NCBI GenBank assembly: GCA_003164715.1
Contig: PLTZ01000068.1
Location: 1 to 64,000 of the forward strand
Length of the DNA: 64,000 bases
Reading direction: 5' to 3'
Source of the DNA: Opitutaceae bacterium
Lineage (GTDB): Bacteria > Verrucomicrobiota > Verrucomicrobiia > Opitutales > Opitutaceae
The notes under the pieces were generated by a model that saw only the letters and a program-made list of their open reading frames with translations, was not told the DNA's origin and did not search any database. Positions 40,998 to 50,676 of this stretch are shown piece by piece. How positions within the stretch are numbered: the stretch's first letter is position 1; each line of letters starts with the position of its first letter. The position numbers and the translations under genes are program-made.

Positions 40998-43900
40998 TTA
41001 CCGCAGTTCATATATTTCGATCAAGGCGACCCCCGTCGAATTCAAGCCACCAGTCACTTGTGCTGTATAGTTCCCTGGAGGTAATGTGGCGACTATCGCT
41101 GAGTCAGCCGATCCGTCCACGAGAGCAAAAGCGCCGACCTTCGCGGAAAGCTCGGCCGTTAGCGGCTGCACGGAGATGTTGCCGGTGGCGGCGCTTCCGA
41201 CGATAGGCCAGGTACCCCAACCAGTGTTCGTGGCGATGATTCCTCCAGTGCCGTCGAATAGCGTTAGGACTGGGCTTGCAAGGGCCCCGGGAACGCCAAA
41301 TCCGGTAAGAGCCGGCCCGTCCCCGCGGATGATAACGGTTTGCCAGGAACTTCCTTTGATCACGAATCCGCCAATCAGAATGTCGCTCCCTGTGCCGACG
41401 AATGCGCGGGCAGAAAGGTTGATCAGGCGATCCGCAGGGGCTAGGCCGTCGGCATCATAGATTTCAGCAAGGGCCACACCGCTGTTGTTTGTTTGCGAGA
41501 TCACCTGGGCTGTGTACGGGCCGGCAGCGAGCGATTCCAGGAGTGCCGTGTCGTGGGAGCCGACGGTAAGGTTAAAAGCGCCCAATTTGGCAAAAGTTGC
41601 CTCGAGCGTCGTGGACCATGAGGTTGCGGTCGCAAGGGTCGTGCCGCCCGAGACTATTGTGAGCTGGGGGTCCGTCAGGAATCCCGTAACACCGAAGTTT
41701 GCGAGCGAAGGTCCGTCACCACGGATAAGGATGGATTTTGCGTCGGGTCCCGCGGTCACAAAGCCGGCGATGAGCTGGTTTGCGCCGCCAGCCCCGCTCG
41801 CGGAATAGGCGCGTGCCGACAGGTTGATGAGCCACGCGTCCGTCTGGACGGTGAACGTACCTAAATTCGCTGTCTCCGACCCAACGGAATTCGATGCGAC
41901 AATAGAATAGGTGCCCTCACTAGCGGCCGTGGGAAAGAAAGCGTACGAGGCCCCTGTCGCACCGGCGATGGCGACGCCGTTTAGGAACCACTGGAACTGA
42001 ATCGAAGCCGGATTGCCGGTCGCCGTGACGAATAGGCCGATCGGATAGGCGCCATTCATGAAGGAGGAGGAGGGCAACGGGTTAACGATAGTTATAGATG
42101 GTCCCGCCAGTGGCGTCTTCACTCCGTAGCGGATCGTGTTATTAAAACGGTCCGCGACATAGATGTTTCCAACCGGGTCGACCGCTATACTGGCTGGCCA
42201 ATTGAATTGCGCAGCTGCCCCGGTCCCATCGGCAAAGCTGAAGTTGTTCGAATCAGCCGGCGGGCCCGCGCCCGCAAGCGTCGTTACCACCCCCGCCGGC
42301 GTAACCATTCGAATCTCGTTGTTTCCCGTGTCCGCAACGTAGACGTTGCCGCCCCCATCCACTGCCACACCGGAAGGGCCTCTGAACTGTGCCGCGGCTC
42401 CTGTTCCATCGGCATTACCGACGCCGTCAATCCCCGATGAACCTGCCAGAGTCGTGACCGCCCCGTTTGGAAATATCTTGCGAATCGTGCCGTTGGCTTG
42501 ATCCGCGACATATACATTGCCGCTCCAATCCACCGCCAAGCCCATTGGGGAGAAAAACTGTGCAGCGGATCCTGTCCCGTCCGCGCTGCCCCGGACTCCT
42601 GCTGTACCCGCCAGTGTAGTCACAACCCCAATCGGAGTGACCTTTCGTATCGTGTCGTTTCCGTTGTCAGCTACATAAATGTTTCCGCTCGCGTCGACGG
42701 CAATGCCTTGTGGGCCATCAAACTGCGCTGCCGGCCCTGTGCCGTCTGCACTGCCGACACCTGCCGCGCCCGGCGAGCCCGCCAGAGTCGTGACGACTCC
42801 GTCAGGAGTAATCTTCCTAATGTCACCGTCCGCAACGTAGACGTTGCCTGCCTTGTCCACCGCTAAAGCGGAGGGAAGATTGAACGTTGCGGCGGCTCCG
42901 GTCCCATCCACATCAAAGGGAGCCCCACTTGGCTCCCCTGGAGTCCCGTTTGCGGCTTCTGGAGTTGGATTGTTTGGCGAGCCCGCAAGAGCTGTCACCT
43001 CGCCGTCTGCTGTGATTTTGCGGATCGTCTCGTTGAAGGTATCCGCAACATAGACGTTGCCGCTCAAATCCACTGAAATGCCCTGCGGTTGATTAAACCG
43101 GGCAGCATTCCCGGTTCCGTCCAAATAGCCTGCTGTCGCGCTGAACGAGCCGGCCATGGTCGTCACCACGCGAGCCGGCGTAATCTTCCGGATCTCATTA
43201 TTGTACGTGTCCGCCACATAGACATTTCCATTAGCGTCGACCGCCACATCGCCAGGTCGCAGGAAATGGGCAGCTGTGCCGACACCGTCTGCCATATCGC
43301 CGTAGGCTCCTATCGCTTCCAAGTTGCCCACGTTGCCAGCCACGGTTGTCACCACTCCGGCCGGCGTGATTTCCCGTATCGTAGAGTTTCCCGTGTCCGC
43401 AACGAAGAGGTTCCCGTTCGCGTCAATCGACAATCCACTGGGTTGCGAGAACTGTGCTGCGGTCCCGACTCCGTCCGCACTCCCGGAGACCCCCGCAGTT
43501 CCAGCGATTGTCGTTACCACCCCTGCGGAAGTGATCTTCCGGATCGTGTTGTTCCACGTGTCTGCAACATAAACATTGTTGGTCGTGTCCACCGCAACGC
43601 CGGCCGGCTCGTTGAATTGAGCAGCGGACCCTGTCCCGTCGGAGCTTCCTTCCACTCCCGGCGTTCCGGCCAAAGTCGTCACCACCCTGGCGGGAGTGAT
43701 CTTCCGGATCGTGTCATTCAGGGAGTCGGCAACATAGACATTCCCGCTCGCATCCACTGCTAACCCGACCGGACGATAGAACTGCGCAGCTGGACCGGTC
43801 CCATCCGCAGGGCCGCCTATAAATGCCGGAGTGCCGGCCAGCGTTGTCACCACTGCGGCCGGCGTGATCTTTCGGATCGTGTTGTTCCACGAGTCCGCTA

Positions 43901-44375
43901 CATAAAGATTCCCGCTCGCGTCGAAAGCCAAGCCGGCTGGGAAGCTGAACTGCGCTGCGGGCCCCGTCCCGTCCGCGCTGCCTATAGGAGCCCCGGCTTC
44001 ACTGGCGTTGGCGGCACCTCCGCCCCAGATTCCGACTACCGCCGAACCCGCGAAGGTAGTAACCGCGCCGGCAGGGGTGATCTTGCGTATGATGCAATCG
44101 TTCGAGTCCGAAACATAGATATTGCCGGTGGCATCGACTGCGACGCCGCCCGGCCTGTCGAACTGCGCGGCTGATCCCGTCCCGTCCAGGCTGCTGCCCG
44201 GCGTCGGGGGCGGTGTGCCAGCCAACGTGGTGATCGCATAGGGTGTGTTGTAAGTAGGACCGCCCGGGAACTGGCCCCAAACTGAACCGCATTGCCCCCC
44301 AAGGGAAAAAACCAGGATCGGTAGTTGACCAAGGCATCGAACAGCTGGCAGACGGCACTTGTGATTCATGAACAT
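40998..44375 (-). CDS. large secreted NHL-repeat / Ig-like domain protein (passenger gene)
   Basis: About 1125 residues. After an N-terminal hydrophobic segment (LPILVFSLGGQCGSVWG) come 12 NHL-type repeats of about 52-70 residues (AAQFxxPxGVAVDxxGNVYVADxxNxTIRKITPxGVVTTLAG), enough for two six-bladed propellers. Next is one Ig-like domain (about IVNPLPSSSFMNGAYP to ANLGTFTV). Two copies of a roughly 130-residue C-terminal domain (RLINLSARAF, GFVIKG, IIRGDGPALTGFGVPG) close the protein. Such proteins are secreted or surface-bound; the role is unknown. Starts at 44369 or 44423 are also possible. Base composition is visibly less GC-rich than the flanks, in keeping with transfer. It sits inside the inverted-repeat-bounded element. 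Confidence 0.85.
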   Translation of the reverse strand: MFMNHKCRLPAVRCLGQLPILVFSLGGQCGSVWGQFPGGPTYNTPYAITTLAGTPPPTPGSSLDGTGSAAQFDRPGGVAVDATGNIYVSDSNDCIIRKITPAGAVTTFAGSAVVGIWGGGAANASEAGAPIGSADGTGPAAQFSFPAGLAFDASGNLYVADSWNNTIRKITPAAVVTTLAGTPAFIGGPADGTGPAAQFYRPVGLAVDASGNVYVADSLNDTIRKITPARVVTTLAGTPGVEGSSDGTGSAAQFNEPAGVAVDTTNNVYVADTWNNTIRKITSAGVVTTIAGTAGVSGSADGVGTAAQFSQPSGLSIDANGNLFVADTGNSTIREITPAGVVTTVAGNVGNLEAIGAYGDMADGVGTAAHFLRPGDVAVDANGNVYVADTYNNEIRKITPARVVTTMAGSFSATAGYLDGTGNAARFNQPQGISVDLSGNVYVADTFNETIRKITADGEVTALAGSPNNPTPEAANGTPGEPSGAPFDVDGTGAAATFNLPSALAVDKAGNVYVADGDIRKITPDGVVTTLAGSPGAAGVGSADGTGPAAQFDGPQGIAVDASGNIYVADNGNDTIRKVTPIGVVTTLAGTAGVRGSADGTGSAAQFFSPMGLAVDWSGNVYVADQANGTIRKIFPNGAVTTLAGSSGIDGVGNADGTGAAAQFRGPSGVAVDGGGNVYVADTGNNEIRMVTPAGVVTTLAGAGPPADSNNFSFADGTGAAAQFNWPASIAVDPVGNIYVADRFNNTIRYGVKTPLAGPSITIVNPLPSSSFMNGAYPIGLFVTATGNPASIQFQWFLNGVAIAGATGASYAFFPTAASEGTYSIVASNSVGSETANLGTFTVQTDAWLINLSARAYSASGAGGANQLIAGFVTAGPDAKSILIRGDGPSLANFGVTGFLTDPQLTIVSGGTTLATATSWSTTLEATFAKLGAFNLTVGSHDTALLESLAAGPYTAQVISQTNNSGVALAEIYDADGLAPADRLINLSARAFVGTGSDILIGGFVIKGSSWQTVIIRGDGPALTGFGVPGALASPVLTLFDGTGGIIATNTGWGTWPIVGSAATGNISVQPLTAELSAKVGAFALVDGSADSAIVATLPPGNYTAQVTGGLNSTGVALIEIYELR
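42110..44175 (-). repeat. twelve tandem NHL coding repeats
   Basis: Approximate span of the repeat-coding DNA, each unit roughly 155-210 bases. Units differ in sequence by point changes and in length by the Gly-rich linker between propeller blades, so this is a diverged protein repeat, not a recent DNA amplification. Confidence 0.8.
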
Positions 44376-44678
44376 GCGCAAAGCGTTGCGATTGGGAACC
44401 TCGGAATAATCCGAGTGACTCACTTCGCAGGACCAACCTCCATAGCAGAATGGTCGTCAAAGCGCCATTGTTGCCGAATTACCCCAATCAGCAATTAGCG
44501 ATTTGACTGTGGGTGGTAAGCTTTGGGATTTCCCGGTTCGTGCCCACACTGTTAGGTGTGAATGCCGGTTGTTCTAGAGGGACCGATTTTGCAAACACGC
44601 CCTAGCACAAACGATGCCTGCACGGCGAGCAATGCGCTGTTGCGGGCGCCCGGGCGGCTCTCTACGCATTTTGCCCGG
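44376..44678. other. region between the NHL gene and the second binding-protein gene
   Basis: About 300 bases without a supported gene. It holds the upstream region of the NHL gene (AT-richer, about 44440-44520), the right inverted repeat (44585-44604) and the leader of the binding-protein gene. An open frame from 44562 runs into that gene, but its first 39 codons cross the inverted repeat and lack any signal-peptide character, so it is not taken as the start. No riboswitch or tRNA was recognised. Confidence 0.5.
44585..44604 (-). repeat. right terminal inverted repeat
   Basis: Reverse complement reads TAGGGCGTGTTTGCAAAATC, differing from the left repeat at one position. It lies 74 bases upstream of the start of the second NMT1/THI5 binding-protein gene, so that gene's natural promoter region may have been replaced. 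Confidence 0.85.
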
Positions 44679-46090: not shown

Positions 46091-47052
46091 GGATCTGGTG
46101 CAACGGCGACTTCGGGGAGGAGGAGATGGCGCTGCTTGTCGGAGGAACCCGGGCCCACACGCTCGTCCTCTCGGCTAGGCGCGACAGCTCGGTCCTGGCC
46201 GCGGGAACGCGTGACCCGGCGATCGCCGGCGCCGACATTGCCTTCGGCCAGCCCGACCCGGCCGACTGCGTGGAATACGCCTCGCTTCGGTGGATCGAGG
46301 TGTCGAGCGCCGGCTACACGCGCTATGACACCGACCTGTTCCGCGAGGCGATCCTCGCGCGCGGCGCGGTGTTCACCAACGCCTCGCAGGTCTACGCGGA
46401 TGCCTGCGCGGAGCATGTCCTGGCCATGATGCTGGCGCTCAACCGCCAGCTCCTTCCCTCGCACGAGAGCCAGCTCGGGGACCGCTCGTGGCCGTACCAG
46501 GAGCGGCGCGACAAGTCGCGCCTCCTGGCCGGCCAGACGGTGGTCCTTCTCGGCTTCGGCGCGATCGGGCGGAGGCTGGCCGCGCTGCTTGCCCCGTTTG
46601 GCGTGCGGATCTATGCCATCAGGCGCCGGATCCACAGTGAACCCGGGGTGCGCGTGGTCGCCGAGGAGGACCTGACCAAGGTCCTTTCCGAGGCCGACCA
46701 CGTCGTGAACCTCCTTCCCGAGAACCCGACGACGCTCGGCTACGTGAATGCGAAACGGATCTCATGCTTCAAGGTGGGCGCCCGGTTCTACAACGTGGGC
46801 CGCGGCCCCACGGTGGACCAGAACGCGCTCATCGACGGTCTCAAGTCGGGCAGGATAGGGGCCGCCTACCTGGATGTGATGGACCCCGAGCCCCTGCCTC
46901 CCGACCATCCGCTCTGGACGGCGCCGAACTGCTTCATCACGCCGCACACCGCCGGCGGGCGCAGCGGCGTCAATCTTGAGCTCGTCAGGCATTTCCTGGG
47001 GAACCTCGCAGCGTTCGAGAGGGGCGGGGCCATGAACGACCGGATCCTGTGA
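46087..47052 (+). CDS. D-isomer-specific 2-hydroxyacid dehydrogenase family protein
   Basis: 321 residues from GTG 46087, overlapping the lipoprotein stop. NAD-binding motif VVLLGFGAIGRRLAALLAPFG, catalytic Arg in FYNVGRGPTVDQ, Glu in YLDVMDPEPLPPDHPLW and His in ITPHTAGG are intact, so it should be active. It would reduce a 2-keto acid or oxidise a D-2-hydroxyacid in the cytoplasm; the substrate is unknown. The pairing with a THI5-type binder suggests it works on a breakdown product of the imported compound. Confidence 0.88.
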   Translation: MRIWCNGDFGEEEMALLVGGTRAHTLVLSARRDSSVLAAGTRDPAIAGADIAFGQPDPADCVEYASLRWIEVSSAGYTRYDTDLFREAILARGAVFTNASQVYADACAEHVLAMMLALNRQLLPSHESQLGDRSWPYQERRDKSRLLAGQTVVLLGFGAIGRRLAALLAPFGVRIYAIRRRIHSEPGVRVVAEEDLTKVLSEADHVVNLLPENPTTLGYVNAKRISCFKVGARFYNVGRGPTVDQNALIDGLKSGRIGAAYLDVMDPEPLPPDHPLWTAPNCFITPHTAGGRSGVNLELVRHFLGNLAAFERGGAMNDRIL

Positions 47053-47089
47053 CGTTTTGATGGCGGCGGGCCCGGGTTTGCGTTCCCGA

Positions 47090-47118
47090 TTGTATTTCCT
47101 GGGTTAAGCGGGAATAAT
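47090..47118 (+). promoter_or_regulatory. candidate promoter of the bufferin-type operon
   Basis: TTGTAT (47090-47095) and AATAAT (47113-47118) with a 17-base spacer, lying about 95 bases ahead of the precursor start. The long leader (47119-47212) could carry control elements; no named motif such as a CopY or CsoR operator was recognised. Confidence 0.35.
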
Positions 47119-47212
47119 ACGTGTCGTTAGTAACTCTAATTCCACACCGCTGCGGGCAGGCACAACGCCGATCTTTGGCGGTATCCCATAAAACCAACAA
47201 CAGAATAGTGTT

Positions 47213-47506
47213 ATGAATAAATCGACACGTTTCATCGTCACCGCCGCGGCCATGGCCGGGCTCTACGCCGGTTCCCTCGCTGCGCGCGCGTATGCCGATG
47301 ACACAGCGGGCAGTGGCGACTCGTCCAAGGACGCTTCCAAGGACGCGGGCAAGCATGACTGCAAGGGCCAAAACTCCTGCAAGGGTACGGGCGGCTGCAA
47401 GTCGGGGGACAATGGCTGCAAGGGCCAGAATTCCTGCAAGGGCAAGGGTGGCTGTAGCACCAACGCGGCGCCCACCCCGACTCCGAGCAAATCCACGTTT
47501 GCCTGA
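47213..47506 (+). CDS. bufferin-type RiPP precursor, Cys-rich, exported
   Basis: 97 residues. Signal peptide cleaved after AYA (about 28), then an acidic/Ser-Lys spacer, then six cysteines at 50, 56, 62, 69, 75 and 81. These form two copies of CKGQNSCKGxGGC separated by KSGDNG, and a Pro/Thr-rich tail follows. Repeated CKGxxxCKG motifs behind a Sec signal, next to DUF692 and DUF2063 genes, are the mark of BufA-type precursors. Their cysteines are turned into thiooxazole-like rings and bind copper in the periplasm. Which cysteines are modified here is unknown. A terminator lies between this gene and the enzyme gene. Confidence 0.85.
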   Translation: MNKSTRFIVTAAAMAGLYAGSLAARAYADDTAGSGDSSKDASKDAGKHDCKGQNSCKGTGGCKSGDNGCKGQNSCKGKGGCSTNAAPTPTPSKSTFA

Positions 47507-47520
47507 GCGGTTTTTCGAGC

Positions 47521-47553
47521 AACGCGGCCGGCGTTTAGTCGGCCGCGTTTTTT
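47521..47553 (+). terminator. intrinsic terminator between precursor and enzyme genes
   Basis: Perfect 10-bp stem AACGCGGCCG / CGGCCGCGTT with a 9-base loop, followed directly by T's to 47553. The next gene's ATG is only 5 bases after the T run. It probably stops most transcripts after the precursor gene and lets a fraction through, giving much more precursor than enzyme. Confidence 0.85.
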
Positions 47554-47557
47554 CTTC

Positions 47558-48406
47558 ATGCCGGCCAATCGATTCAACGGGCACTGTGACTATGGGATAG
47601 GCATCGGGCTCAGGGTTCCCCATTACGCCCATATCCTCTCGAAGAAACCGGTCGTGGACTGGTTCGAGATCATCTCCGAGAACTTCATGGTTGAGGGCGG
47701 GCGGCCGCTGGAGCTGCTCGACAGGATCCTCGAGCAGTACCGGGTGGTTCAGCACGGGGTCTCCATGTACTTCGGGTCCGCGGACAAGCCGGACCGGACG
47801 CACATGAGGAGGCTCAAGGGCCTTGTGAAGCGGACGAAGACGCCCTGGCTCTCGGACCACCTCTGCTGGGGAAGCGTGGACGGAACGTACACGCACGACC
47901 TCCTGCCGATGCCCTACACCTTTGCGGCCGCGCGGCGCACGGCCGAGAAGATCCGCCAGGTGCGCGACTACCTTGAGGTCCCGATCTGCGTGGAGAACGT
48001 GAGCAGCTACGCCGAGTTCCATGCCTCCGAAATGACGGAGTGGGAGTTCCTGACCGAGGTCGTCGAGCTCGCCGACTGCGGAATTCTCCTGGACGTGAAC
48101 AACATCTACGTCTCGTCGAAGAACCACGGCTTCAACCCGTACGATTACGTGGACAACATCCCCCACGGCCGCGTGGGACAGATGCACATCGCCGGGCACA
48201 CCAAGTTTGAGAAGTACATCCTCGACACGCACGACCACCCGGTGCTCGACCCGGTCTGGAAGCTCTACGCGCACGCGACCGAGCTGTGCGGGATCTCGGC
48301 CACGCTGCTTGAGTGGGACGACAAGATCCCGTCGTTTGACGAGGTCCACAACGAGGCGCTCAAGGCCAACGAGTTCATCGACGGGGCGAAAAGGGCGGCG
48401 GTGTGA
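47558..48406 (+). CDS. bufB: MNIO-family (DUF692) RiPP-modifying oxidase
   Basis: 282-residue multinuclear non-heme iron enzyme of the DUF692 TIM-barrel family. Metal-binding positions are readable: Glu in FEIISENF, His in VVQHGVSM, His in LSDHLCW, Glu-Asn in CVENVSSY, Asp-Asn in LLDVNNIYV, His in MHIAGH, Asp-His in DTHDHPV and Glu in LLEWDD. In bufferin clusters this enzyme modifies precursor cysteines with iron and oxygen. It overlaps the DUF2063 gene (GTGA). The ATG at 47558 sits just after a terminator T-run with no Shine-Dalgarno sequence visible, so translation may be weak or start slightly downstream. Confidence 0.9.
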   Translation: MPANRFNGHCDYGIGIGLRVPHYAHILSKKPVVDWFEIISENFMVEGGRPLELLDRILEQYRVVQHGVSMYFGSADKPDRTHMRRLKGLVKRTKTPWLSDHLCWGSVDGTYTHDLLPMPYTFAAARRTAEKIRQVRDYLEVPICVENVSSYAEFHASEMTEWEFLTEVVELADCGILLDVNNIYVSSKNHGFNPYDYVDNIPHGRVGQMHIAGHTKFEKYILDTHDHPVLDPVWKLYAHATELCGISATLLEWDDKIPSFDEVHNEALKANEFIDGAKRAAV

Positions 48407-49338
48407 AACGGCCCCCTAAGCACGCCCCAGTCCGCATCGGGTCCACGGACGACCTGCGGCTCTTCCAGCGGATGATGGCGACGGCCATCACCAGGCCGCT
48501 CAGCGCGGACGACGGCCTCCAGTCCCGGTGGATCGACGGCCGCCCCATGGAGAAGGTCGCCGCCGAGTTCATCAAGCCGAACGACCGGCTCACCTCGTTC
48601 GAGAGGCTCGAGCTCTACAACCGGATGTATTGGTTCCGGCTCTTCGACGCGATCTGCGACGACTGCCCGGGCCTGCAGGCCGCGCTCGGCGAGCGCGCGT
48701 TCGGGCGTCTCGCGCAGGCCTACCTGGCGCGGTATCCGTCGCAATCCTTCACCCTGCGTGATCTCAGCTCGAGGCTCGTGCGGTTCATCAGGGAGAGGCC
48801 GAGCCTGACCGCCCCGCGGACGGCGCTCGCGCTCGAGATCGCCCGGTTTGAGTGGGCGCAGACGGTGGCGTTTGACGGGGAGTTCAGGCCGGTCGTCTCC
48901 GCGGCGGCGCTCGCCCGGACCCCGCCCGGGCGGCTCAGGCTGGGGCTCCAGCCCTACGTGACCCTCCTTGACCTGCGCCATCCGATCGACAGCTATGTCA
49001 TTTCCGTGAAGCGCCGCGACGCGATGCGCTCGGAGGCGAGCAACACGCCCGACTCGACGGTCACGGCCCGGGAGCGGATCCGCAGGGTGCCCCTTCCGCG
49101 GCCCTCGCGAACGTTCGTCGCGGTCCACCGGCACGACAACCGCCTCTTTTACAAGCGGCTCGATCCGGCCGCGTTCCGGATCCTCGAGGCGCTGTCCAAG
49201 GGCAGCACGCTGACGAGGGCCATCGCTGCGGCAGGCCCGGGAGCCACGCCGGCGCGGGTCCGGAACTGGTTCAAGTCGTGGATGGCGCTCGGCTGGTTCT
49301 GCGCCCGCGGGAATAAGAGGGGCCGGCGGCCATCGTGA
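48403..49338 (+). CDS. bufC: DUF2063 (BufC/HvfC-type) partner protein
   Basis: 311 residues. The N-terminal DUF2063 domain starts at DDLRLFQRMMATAITRPL and has the ERLELYNRMYWFRLFDAICDDCPGLQAALG block, which is typical. In MNIO clusters this partner delivers or recognises the precursor. A less conserved C-terminal part from about residue 215 includes YKRLDPAAFRILEALSKG and a final basic tail. It is longer than many relatives. GTG start overlaps bufB's stop. Confidence 0.88.
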   Translation: MKRPPKHAPVRIGSTDDLRLFQRMMATAITRPLSADDGLQSRWIDGRPMEKVAAEFIKPNDRLTSFERLELYNRMYWFRLFDAICDDCPGLQAALGERAFGRLAQAYLARYPSQSFTLRDLSSRLVRFIRERPSLTAPRTALALEIARFEWAQTVAFDGEFRPVVSAAALARTPPGRLRLGLQPYVTLLDLRHPIDSYVISVKRRDAMRSEASNTPDSTVTARERIRRVPLPRPSRTFVAVHRHDNRLFYKRLDPAAFRILEALSKGSTLTRAIAAAGPGATPARVRNWFKSWMALGWFCARGNKRGRRPS

Positions 49339-49382
49339 AGACATGAACCCACAGCCGTTCCGGCCTTAGTCCCCAAACACCG

Positions 49383-49841
49383 ATGTCTATCCTGTCCAAG
49401 CTCAACGCCCTGCTCGCAACGGTGGGCGGATTCCTCCAGAGCCCGTTCCTGCTCGTGGTCCGCCTTTACTGGGGGTGGCAGTTCTTCCTCACGGGCAGGG
49501 GCAAGCTCCTGCACCTCGACAGGACGGTCAACTTCTTCGCGAGCCTCAACATCCCGGCCCCCAAGCTGAACGCGGTCCTCGCCTCCTGCACCGAGTGCAC
49601 CGGCGGCATTCTGCTCCTTCTGGGGCTGTTCTCGCGCTTCGTCTCGCCGGCGCTCATCGCGGTGATGTGCGTGGCCTACGCGACGGCGGACAGCGAGGCG
49701 CTGCACTCCATCTTCTCCAACCCGGACAAGTTCCTGGGGGCCGACCCGTTCCTGTTCCTCTTCGCGGCCCTAATCGTGTTCGTCTTCGGGCCCGGCAAGA
49801 TCTCACTCGACGCGCTGATCCTAAGGGGGAAGAAGGAATGA
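49383..49841 (+). CDS. DoxX-family membrane protein
   Basis: 152 residues with four membrane helices (RLYWGWQFFLTGRGKLLHLDR opens the DoxX motif; ASCTECTGGILLLLGLFSR and KISLDALIL follow). DoxX genes accompany many bufferin/MNIO clusters; their role there is unknown, perhaps redox or thiol handling at the membrane. It follows the DUF2063 gene after 44 bases on the same strand. Confidence 0.88.
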   Translation: MSILSKLNALLATVGGFLQSPFLLVVRLYWGWQFFLTGRGKLLHLDRTVNFFASLNIPAPKLNAVLASCTECTGGILLLLGLFSRFVSPALIAVMCVAYATADSEALHSIFSNPDKFLGADPFLFLFAALIVFVFGPGKISLDALILRGKKE

Positions 49842-49863
49842 TCCCGGAGCGCCCGGGAGGCGG

Positions 49864-50676
49864 TCACTTTGCCGGGCTGAAGAGATCCTCGTAGGCGTAA
49901 ACCACCGCGCCGAGGATCAGCGGGATCGCGACGAAGACCCCGACGCCGAGGGCGACGCCCCCGAGAATGAGGAACGGAATGGCGAGAAGGATCAGGCCGA
50001 AGACCCGCCACCACTGGCGGGTGGCCACCTTGCGGCTCGTCTCCATCGACTCCCAGAAACCGAGCTTCTTGTCTACGGCGAGGATCACGGCGAAGGAGTA
50101 GGCGATCACAAGGTACACGCCCGGGAGTATGAGGCAGAACATCCCGACCGTGACGAAGACCGAGATGAGCAGGCCCGCCACCATGAGCGTGAGGAACGCC
50201 CTCGTGAAGCCCGCGAACATGTCGGCGAACACGGCCGGCTGGCCGCGAGCCCTGAGGAGAACGAAATAGTAGGCACCGGCCCCGACGACGGCCCCGAAGA
50301 GTGGCGTGACCACTAATATGCCCGCAAAATGCCCGCAGCCCAGAACGGCATAGATGACCGACGTGAGGACGCCGACTCCCACGAACGCCCAGAAGTTGGC
50401 CTTTAGCAGGTTCCAGCTGCGCTCGTAGCAGCCGAAGACGTCCAGCAGGGCGGCCGCAGGAGCCGCGGCGGGCGCGGCTGCGGCCACCGAAATCTCGGCG
50501 GCCGGCGCGGTGGCCCCCGACAGCTCCGGAAAGTCGGCTACGGTCCTCCAGGCGTCGGAGCCCGCGGCCTTGATCCGGGTCTGCAGGTTTGCCCGGCCGC
50601 CCGCGATCCAGGAGCGGACCTGTTCAGCCGTGACCGGTCCGTATTCCCGCCCGTCTCCTCCGATGATCGTGTACAT
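49864..50676 (-). CDS. GYF_2-domain multi-pass membrane protein
   Basis: 270 residues. Residues 1-55 form a GYF_2 domain (YTIIGGDGREYGPVTAEQVRSWIAGGRAN). An Ala/Pro-rich linker follows, then five or so membrane helices (about 90-265, with VYLVIAYSFAVILAVDKKLGFWESMETSRK). The combination is common in Verrucomicrobiota and Planctomycetota with unknown function. Convergent with the DoxX gene. Confidence 0.75.
   Translation of the reverse strand: MYTIIGGDGREYGPVTAEQVRSWIAGGRANLQTRIKAAGSDAWRTVADFPELSGATAPAAEISVAAAAPAAAPAAALLDVFGCYERSWNLLKANFWAFVGVGVLTSVIYAVLGCGHFAGILVVTPLFGAVVGAGAYYFVLLRARGQPAVFADMFAGFTRAFLTLMVAGLLISVFVTVGMFCLILPGVYLVIAYSFAVILAVDKKLGFWESMETSRKVATRQWWRVFGLILLAIPFLILGGVALGVGVFVAIPLILGAVVYAYEDLFSPAK

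Follow-up and report, generated by a model that had tools for sequence, protein, structure and literature searches.

The stretch of DNA analysed here (the window) is the first 64,000 nucleotides of contig PLTZ01000068.1 from an Opitutaceae bacterium. It carries a four-gene operon whose product, judging from its sequence, is very probably a chemically modified, cysteine-rich copper-binding peptide. The operon spans positions 47213-49841 and encodes, all on the forward strand, a small cysteine-rich precursor, a DUF692 maturase of the multi-iron oxygenase (MNIO) type, a DUF2063 partner protein and a DoxX-family membrane protein (Table 1). In all likelihood this arrangement belongs to a known kind of system, the Buf2-like bufferin (captophorin) operons for copper buffering. 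The precursor is a branch of its own within the Buf2-like bufferins, and the gap between the precursor and maturase genes holds a terminator-like hairpin whose stem has changed on both sides among relatives.

Table 1. Features of the operon and its upstream region (window positions)
Feature	Positions	Strand	Description
Conserved upstream element	47110..47143	+	GGGAATA-N8-CG(n)TAGTnnCTC / GGGAATA-N8-CGnTAGTnnCTC; ~100 nt before precursor start
bufA-like precursor gene	47213..47506	+	97 aa, six Cys; from reading of the open reading frame
Signal-peptide-like N terminus	47213..47296	+	residues 1-28, AAxAGLxxG motif; judged by eye
Six-Cys core	47360..47455	+	two CKGQNSCKGxGGC copies
Terminator-like hairpin and T run	47521..47553	+	12-bp stem, 5-nt loop (stem-loop 47521-47549)
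MNIO (DUF692) maturase gene, bufB-like	47558..48406	+	282 aa; PF05114, 4.4e-104
DUF2063 partner gene, bufC-like	48403..49338	+	311 aa; PF09836, 2.8e-13, 50.4 bits (cut-off 27.2)
DoxX-family membrane protein gene	49383..49841	+	152 aa; PF07681, 1.1e-19

Gene content and enzyme signatures

The MNIO scores 339.2 bits against the bufferin-maturase model NF050167 (cut-off 310) and 242.4 bits against the HvfB model, below its cut-off of 360. With DUF2063 and DoxX genes beside it, this upholds a preliminary description of the locus as a bufferin-type operon. The gene order given in that description is correct, but the overlap it reported exists only at the MNIO/DUF2063 junction, where the genes share 4 bp (GTGA). 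The precursor and MNIO genes are separated by 51 nt, with the hairpin inside, and the DUF2063 and DoxX genes by 44 nt. A protein search of the 3.79-Mb genome, which is assembled in 92 contigs, returns a single MNIO match and a single precursor match. Among the matches listed, the named relatives closest to the MNIO come from Opitutaceae metagenome-assembled genomes (MAGs) and are 92-94% identical (94% over 238 residues only), as expected for the verrucomicrobial host that had been proposed.

Comparisons with relatives draw on the 80 best matches out of at least 566 from named genomes, together with a phylum sample and a family sample; comparator loci are labelled with L-numbers. An MNIO search places such genes in 27 of 288 phylum-sample genomes, two of them weakly (E 5e-4 and 1.5e-15), and in 41 of 150 family-sample genomes, the genome studied here being included in both counts. 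Nine residues (H66, H101, E146, N181, N182, H210, D223, H225 and D254) are invariant in all 120 nonredundant MNIOs, that of the window among them. When HvfB residues are assigned by hand from the 3bww alignment, the site-3 ligands described in passages of a preprint (PMC13419390) map by motif to Asn181 or Asn182, Asp223 and His225. The same source reports that the HvfB variants N175A, D242A and H244A are inactive.

According to passages of PMC13097082, Asp249 of FonB is proposed as the catalytic base, and in MNIOs that act on Cys-Lys motifs an Asp replaces Phe250. These two places are occupied in the window's enzyme by D254 and D255. Asp255 is present in 109 of the 120 nonredundant MNIOs. In the set used for a phylogenetic tree (see below), the window's branch has it in 31 of its 38 rows, Pseudomonadota Buf2 in 8 of 10 and Buf1 in none of 10. 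By sequence, the Asp254-Asp255 pair and the Cys-Lys motifs of the precursor are the combination that marks Cys-Lys captophorins.

The DUF2063 partner is predicted to carry at its C terminus a fold of the kind found in RiPP (ribosomally synthesised and post-translationally modified peptide) recognition elements (RREs). An AlphaFold2 model computed from 57 aligned DUF2063 proteins has a mean predicted local distance difference test score (pLDDT) of 92.8 and a predicted template modelling score (pTM) of 0.88. Foldseek returns three matches below 0.001, two to TglI (8hci_A, 2.5e-6; 8hi7_A, 5.5e-6) and one to NGO1945 (3dee, 3.1e-6), as well as weak matches to lasso-peptide RREs such as TbiB1 (5v1v, E 1.8). 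A sequence search of the PDB with this protein finds only one adenylate kinase (E 0.7). The partner scores 38.6 bits on the HvfC model (cut-off 142), and the DoxX protein 74.6 bits on the HvfX model, below the cut-off of 80. Where the sequence extends 2.2 kb or more past the MNIO gene (74 loci), a DUF2063 gene starts on the same strand within 1.5 kb downstream in 73; in the one miss, L023, it overlaps the MNIO gene by a few bases.

The precursor and its six-cysteine core

The cysteines of the precursor lie at residues 50, 56, 62, 69, 75 and 81 (spacing 6-6-7-6-6); the first five are each followed by lysine and the sixth by serine. The open reading frame contains the two CKGQNSCKGxGGC copies first noted from the sequence. 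The N terminus, described with them as a Sec signal, looks typical of a signal peptide by eye, and cleavage is assumed to follow AYA. No Pfam model matches the protein up to E 0.1 and, as had been stated, a precursor with six cysteines is not of the four-Cys DUF2282 type. A regular expression recovers the AGLxxG motif of the signal region at 98 of 120 loci, a retention that fits preliminary results according to which the signal peptide belongs to the recognition sequence of Buf1 (PMC12452194, in the passages on this point). The core peptides of L110 and L111 are identical to that of the window, and the 9 of 32 core codons that differ do so synonymously in every case; the precursor is therefore not a chance open reading frame. 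Across the 12 relatives compared, nonsynonymous core codon changes reach 9, and the closest relatives show mostly synonymous changes.

The preliminary description set the duplicated core apart from the four-Cys type and took its product, as far as could be told, to be unstudied. Both statements, taken as a mark of novelty, go too far, because a six-Cys Buf2 has been published and the layout is a trait of the family. Counting near-duplicates, the first two sets comprise 105 loci, and the pattern C-x5-C-x3-GG-C-x6-C-x5-C-x5-C is present in 69 of them. In these 69 precursors lysine follows Cys1 60 times, Cys2 and Cys5 68 times each, and Cys3 and Cys4 62 times each. After removal of redundancy the six-Cys 6-6-7-6-6 pattern remains at 83 of 120 loci: 36 of 48 in Opitutaceae/Opitutae, 28 of 40 in other groups and 19 of 32 in Acidobacteria. 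The Buf2 of Caulobacter vibrioides is partly characterised, with the same mass loss per Cys and a 305-nm band (PMC12452194, relevant passages), and passages of a 2021 report on Antarctic gammaproteobacterial clusters describe a six-Cys precursor adjoining DUF692 and DUF2063 genes (PMC8692599). The idea of a six-Cys duplicated core without precedent was rejected on these grounds. What stands is that the near-perfect duplication is unlike the Pseudomonadota Buf2 precursors examined; the two metal-binding units that the description read from it are putative.

Known Buf2 peptides (BUF_6/12Cys, NF050166; C. vibrioides) share with the window six cysteines, a signal-peptide-like N terminus, CKGxN motifs, the order precursor-MNIO-DUF2063 with DoxX, and an MNIO of the Cys-Lys type. 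They differ in the placement of the last cysteine, which lies 13 residues past the fifth in Buf2 and 6 past it in the window, where a 13-residue unit is duplicated almost perfectly. The Buf2-type precursors of Pseudomonadota plasmids (L136-L140) have the spacing 6-6-7-6-13, as does L135 after one extra cysteine in the signal region. Four of these six precursors score 88-106 bits on the BufA2 model NF050166, and a hexad-array precursor scores 18.8 bits. BufA2-type matches occur in 11 of 13 genomes of the genus and in none of 14 control genomes; no genome among the 19 in the search of relatives reaches the NF050166 cut-off.

In a maximum-likelihood tree of 58 MNIOs, all 38 rows of the window's group (Verrucomicrobia, Acidobacteria and one Phycisphaerales MAG) fall on one side of a branch (98/89). 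Another branch (100/99) has the 10 Buf1 rows together on one side, apart from the window's group. A DUF692 phylogeny had been suggested as a check on the first description. It separates the window from Buf1, and it divides the Buf2 enzymes. The deeper order of this tree is unsure because it is midpoint-rooted and has long branches.

Buf1 (DUF2282) operons have their order and partner genes in common with the window, and differ in having four cysteines, a DUF2282 domain, a separate place in the MNIO tree and no Asp255. Oxazolin and fontiphorin (EGKCG captophorins) also combine an MNIO with a DUF2063 partner, repeated Cys motifs and a signal peptide, but their motifs are Lys-Cys (EGKCG), whereas those of the window are Cys-Lys, and the precursor as read has no EGKCG. 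Methanobactin (MbnABC) involves the same enzyme superfamily and a copper peptide, but the window's MNIO reaches only 40.2 bits on the MbnB model (cut-off 325), and methanobactin precursors lack the signal peptide (PMC12452194, relevant passages) that the N terminus of the window's precursor resembles.

Several observations weigh against the Buf2-like reading. The precursor scores 39.4 bits on NF050166, below the cut-off of 60, and five verrucomicrobial and acidobacterial precursors of the same layout, at 36-43 bits, also fall short of it. The 10 Pseudomonadota Buf2 rows of the tree are split, with 7 on the Buf1 side and 3 on the window's. Finally, a DoxX gene follows within 3.5 kb in only 52 of the 74 loci.

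Cysteine content varies among relatives of the precursor. Candidates could not be picked for L045 and L097; the pick for L058 is wrong, and that for L072, 735 nt from the MNIO gene, is doubtful. Among 48 nonredundant Opitutaceae/Opitutae precursors, 23 have the plain six-Cys core, 13 have the core with extra cysteines and 12 have no such core. Past the signal region these proteins contain 4 to 11 cysteines, and lysine follows 277 of the 356 counted. The coreless precursors include (CKGKDG)n arrays (L032, L090, L091), CKGKEGCKAKES repeats (L129), short or irregular sequences (L053, L096, L116, L123) and, in L106, an unrelated-looking protein beside a distant MNIO (50% identity). The precursors of L032, L033, L090, L091 and L129 consist mostly of CKGKDG/CKAKES-type hexads with 7 to 11 cysteines, and their maturases are of the window's type.

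The core takes further forms in other groups. It is shrunk to CKGKQSCKG in other verrucomicrobial families (L099, L100, L102, L103). Precursor candidates located before the MNIO gene in L101, L104 and L105, from another verrucomicrobial family, have single-Cys KDDCPGKDK repeats. In Acidobacteria, the core is partly lost in L029, L057, L060, L061, L062, L064 and L065, and likewise in L067, L069, L071, L075 and L076, leaving 3 to 5 core cysteines. The main text of PMC12452194, figures apart, does not mention Verrucomicrob- or Acidobacter-, which does not show that these phyla were overlooked.

The hairpin between the precursor and maturase genes

The T run of the hairpin directly abuts its stem and stops 4 nt short of the MNIO start. 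With so few nucleotides between them, expression of the enzyme genes must depend on read-through or on a promoter inside bufA. The 60-nt stretch containing the hairpin has a folding energy of -30.6 kcal/mol (z -4.1). Two patterns derived from it, CGCGGCCG-N4..16-CGGCCGCG-TTTTT and CGGCCGCGTTTTTT, each occur once in the genome, and the idea of a terminator sequence that recurs across this genome was rejected. A search of Rfam with positions 46900-50000 gives no match. The main text of PMC12452194, the passages of PMC5413113 concerned and a literature search for DUF692 with terminators, which listed a single genome paper, contain no report of a hairpin between bufA and bufB.

Hairpins of this kind also occur in the corresponding gaps of relatives. 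In a first pass that included near-duplicates, they are present at 40 of 96 loci compared with 1.8 expected from shuffles. The nonredundant test covers 113 of 120 loci, those with gaps below 20 or above 300 nt (L024, L058, L063, L066, L072, L078 and L079) being set aside. Gap hairpins are found in 43 of 48 Opitutaceae/Opitutae loci (coding controls 4 of 480, regions upstream of bufA 2 of 39), 10 of 35 other, mostly verrucomicrobial, loci (0 of 350 and 0 of 26) and 9 of 30 acidobacterial loci (0 of 300 and 0 of 27). Of these 62 hairpins, 45 were aligned, namely the 43 from Opitutaceae/Opitutae plus L010 and L012, and 11 of the 12 pairs in the alignment have changes on both sides. Such double changes occupy 67 cells, compared with a shuffle mean of 17.4 and with 2-22 in slid controls.

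Stems also occur in Pseudomonadota plasmid loci, 24 of which were considered; L142, which has no annotation, and L159, with no MNIO annotated beside its precursor, were not used, and the second operons in L137 and L157, which are of Buf1 type with gaps of 1-2 nt, are not among the eight Buf1 gaps. GC-rich stems of 7 bp or more are present in 13 of 14 Buf2 and 4 of 8 Buf1 gaps, compared with 33 of 220 coding controls. These stems often lack a T run, and some of the loci are close relatives.

The view that the hairpin is an attenuator has to be set against several contrary points. A loose terminator scan of 3.1 kb finds three sites when 2.2 are expected. The hairpin clearly exceeds the other two in strength, but the scan alone proves nothing, and the case therefore rests on strength and conservation. 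Although 99.2% of cells in the 45-hairpin alignment are paired, that value is partly built in, because hairpins were picked for perfect stems and the loci are related. Most gaps beyond Opitutaceae/Opitutae are without such a hairpin. The structure could equally be a 3' stabiliser or a processing site. A sigma-70 scan finds no promoter, either before bufA or at the bufA-MNIO junction.

The last two points bear on a possible but rather doubtful alternative, in which the hairpin ends a single-gene bufA transcript or stabilises its 3' end and the enzymes are expressed from a promoter inside bufA. Such an arrangement would suit the strong stem, the T run and the uniqueness of the hairpin sequence in the genome. 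It is harder to reconcile with the very short distance from the T run to the MNIO start and with the empty sigma-70 scan of the junction, although that scan found nothing before bufA either. In the Legionella GIG operon, a different operon of DUF2282 (Buf1) type, reverse transcription PCR showed co-transcription over the precursor-enzyme junction (passages of PMC5413113).

The conserved element upstream of the precursor gene (Table 1) may act as an operator or as a non-standard promoter. An alignment of 20 relatives shows that many share it. A loose pattern matches in Opitutaceae/Opitutae at 24 of 46 loci, in other groups at 4 of 39 and in Acidobacteria at 0 of 32; among coding controls it matches 1 of 117. 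A few matches lie at other distances (L026, L063, L088). No regulon emerged, because two patterns for the element match only their own site in the genome; a reversed control of one gives one match.

Proposed mechanism, metal context and implications

The proposed mechanism begins with synthesis of the precursor in the cytoplasm, where the DUF2063-RRE partner would hold it by its signal or leader region. The MNIO, acting as a multi-iron oxygenase, would then convert several of the Cys-Lys cysteines to 5-thiooxazoles, with a change of about -4 Da each. At most five of the six (50, 56, 62, 69 and 75) would be convertible, and Asp255 of the enzyme may contact the Lys of the Cys-Lys pair. Sec would export the modified peptide, and its thiooxazoles would bind periplasmic copper and blunt copper stress, with DoxX in a putative auxiliary membrane role. 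At the RNA level, the hairpin after bufA may pass only part of the transcripts into the enzyme genes. Partial termination would therefore yield more of the stoichiometric buffer than of its catalysts. In ABC importer operons, subunit ratios are reported to be set by internal terminators (passages of PMC9045158).

We give about an even chance to a joint reading of these features, in which a built-in RNA attenuator sets the precursor:enzyme ratio, or regulates it with a metal or protein, while precursors evolve by hexad units. On this reading the hairpin would be kept across Opitutaceae through changes on both sides of its stem and would take other shapes in some Acidobacteriota and Pseudomonadota loci. 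Opitutaceae precursors would gain and lose CKGKDG-like hexads alongside the same maturase type, so that the modified unit would be the hexad rather than a folded six-Cys domain.

The metal served by the peptide could be a different one, and an unlikely alternative is that the same modified product acts against gold, mercury, zinc or oxidative stress. No copper gene is recognised in the scanned flanks (about 41.0-53.6 kb; the rest of the genome was not searched), which counts against copper. Two DUF2282-type operons on plasmids of Rhodanobacter and Paraburkholderia, L162 (1657-4722) and L168, are located within or next to genes for mercury resistance; the mercury locus of L162 comprises merR, merT, merP and merC, and L168 ends next to merR. 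Gold-induced operons and MerC fusions are noted in passages of PMC12452194, and passages of PMC5413113 describe the Legionella operon as responsive to gold and copper. Copper buffering is favoured by the finding that thiooxazole peptides tested for metals bind copper (passages of PMC12538549, PMC13419390, PMC13097082 and PMC12452194). In addition, the Buf2 comparator L138 adjoins a copper multicopper oxidase. Another Buf2 comparator, L136, adjoins a heavy-metal P-type ATPase and efflux genes.

It is very improbable that the product is an unmodified, metallothionein-like peptide on which the MNIO acts at few or no cysteines: a Cys-rich core alone could bind soft metals, and with cores of 4-11 Cys in Opitutaceae/Opitutae and down to 3 in Acidobacteria exact sites may matter little, but the precursor gene precedes the MNIO gene in the loci studied (a regularity partly built in, because the loci were found through the MNIO), and the prevalence of Cys-Lys pairs in Opitutaceae/Opitutae precursors together with Asp255 of the enzyme matches the Cys-Lys substrate class of PMC13097082.

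The genes that flank the operon encode an NHL-repeat protein, an NMT1/THI5-like binding protein, a 2-hydroxyacid dehydrogenase, a GYF_2-domain membrane protein, and an outer membrane efflux protein with an MFS transporter. On the reverse strand at 40998-44423 is a gene for an 1141-aa protein with many NHL repeats (Pfam NHL, 3.7e-81).

Over 24,000 known loci combine an MNIO with a DUF2063-type partner (passages of PMC13097082), and the kind of operon found here is itself known. Three aspects deserve further attention: the separate branch, the variation of the core by units, and the conserved hairpin. In the literature covered, the thiooxazole peptides that have been studied experimentally (from Caulobacter, Fontimonas, Haemophilus, Neisseria and Microbulbifer) all come from Pseudomonadota. 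The window's branch is carried by many Verrucomicrobiota and Acidobacteriota genomes, and its precursors fall under the cut-off of the NCBI precursor model whenever tested. With 4-11 cysteines and one maturase type, the Opitutaceae precursors are a natural set in which to examine which sites are modified, whether the enzyme acts unit by unit and whether copper capacity scales with the number of units. The hairpin, in turn, suggests a testable way in which a stoichiometric buffer might come to outnumber its catalysts.

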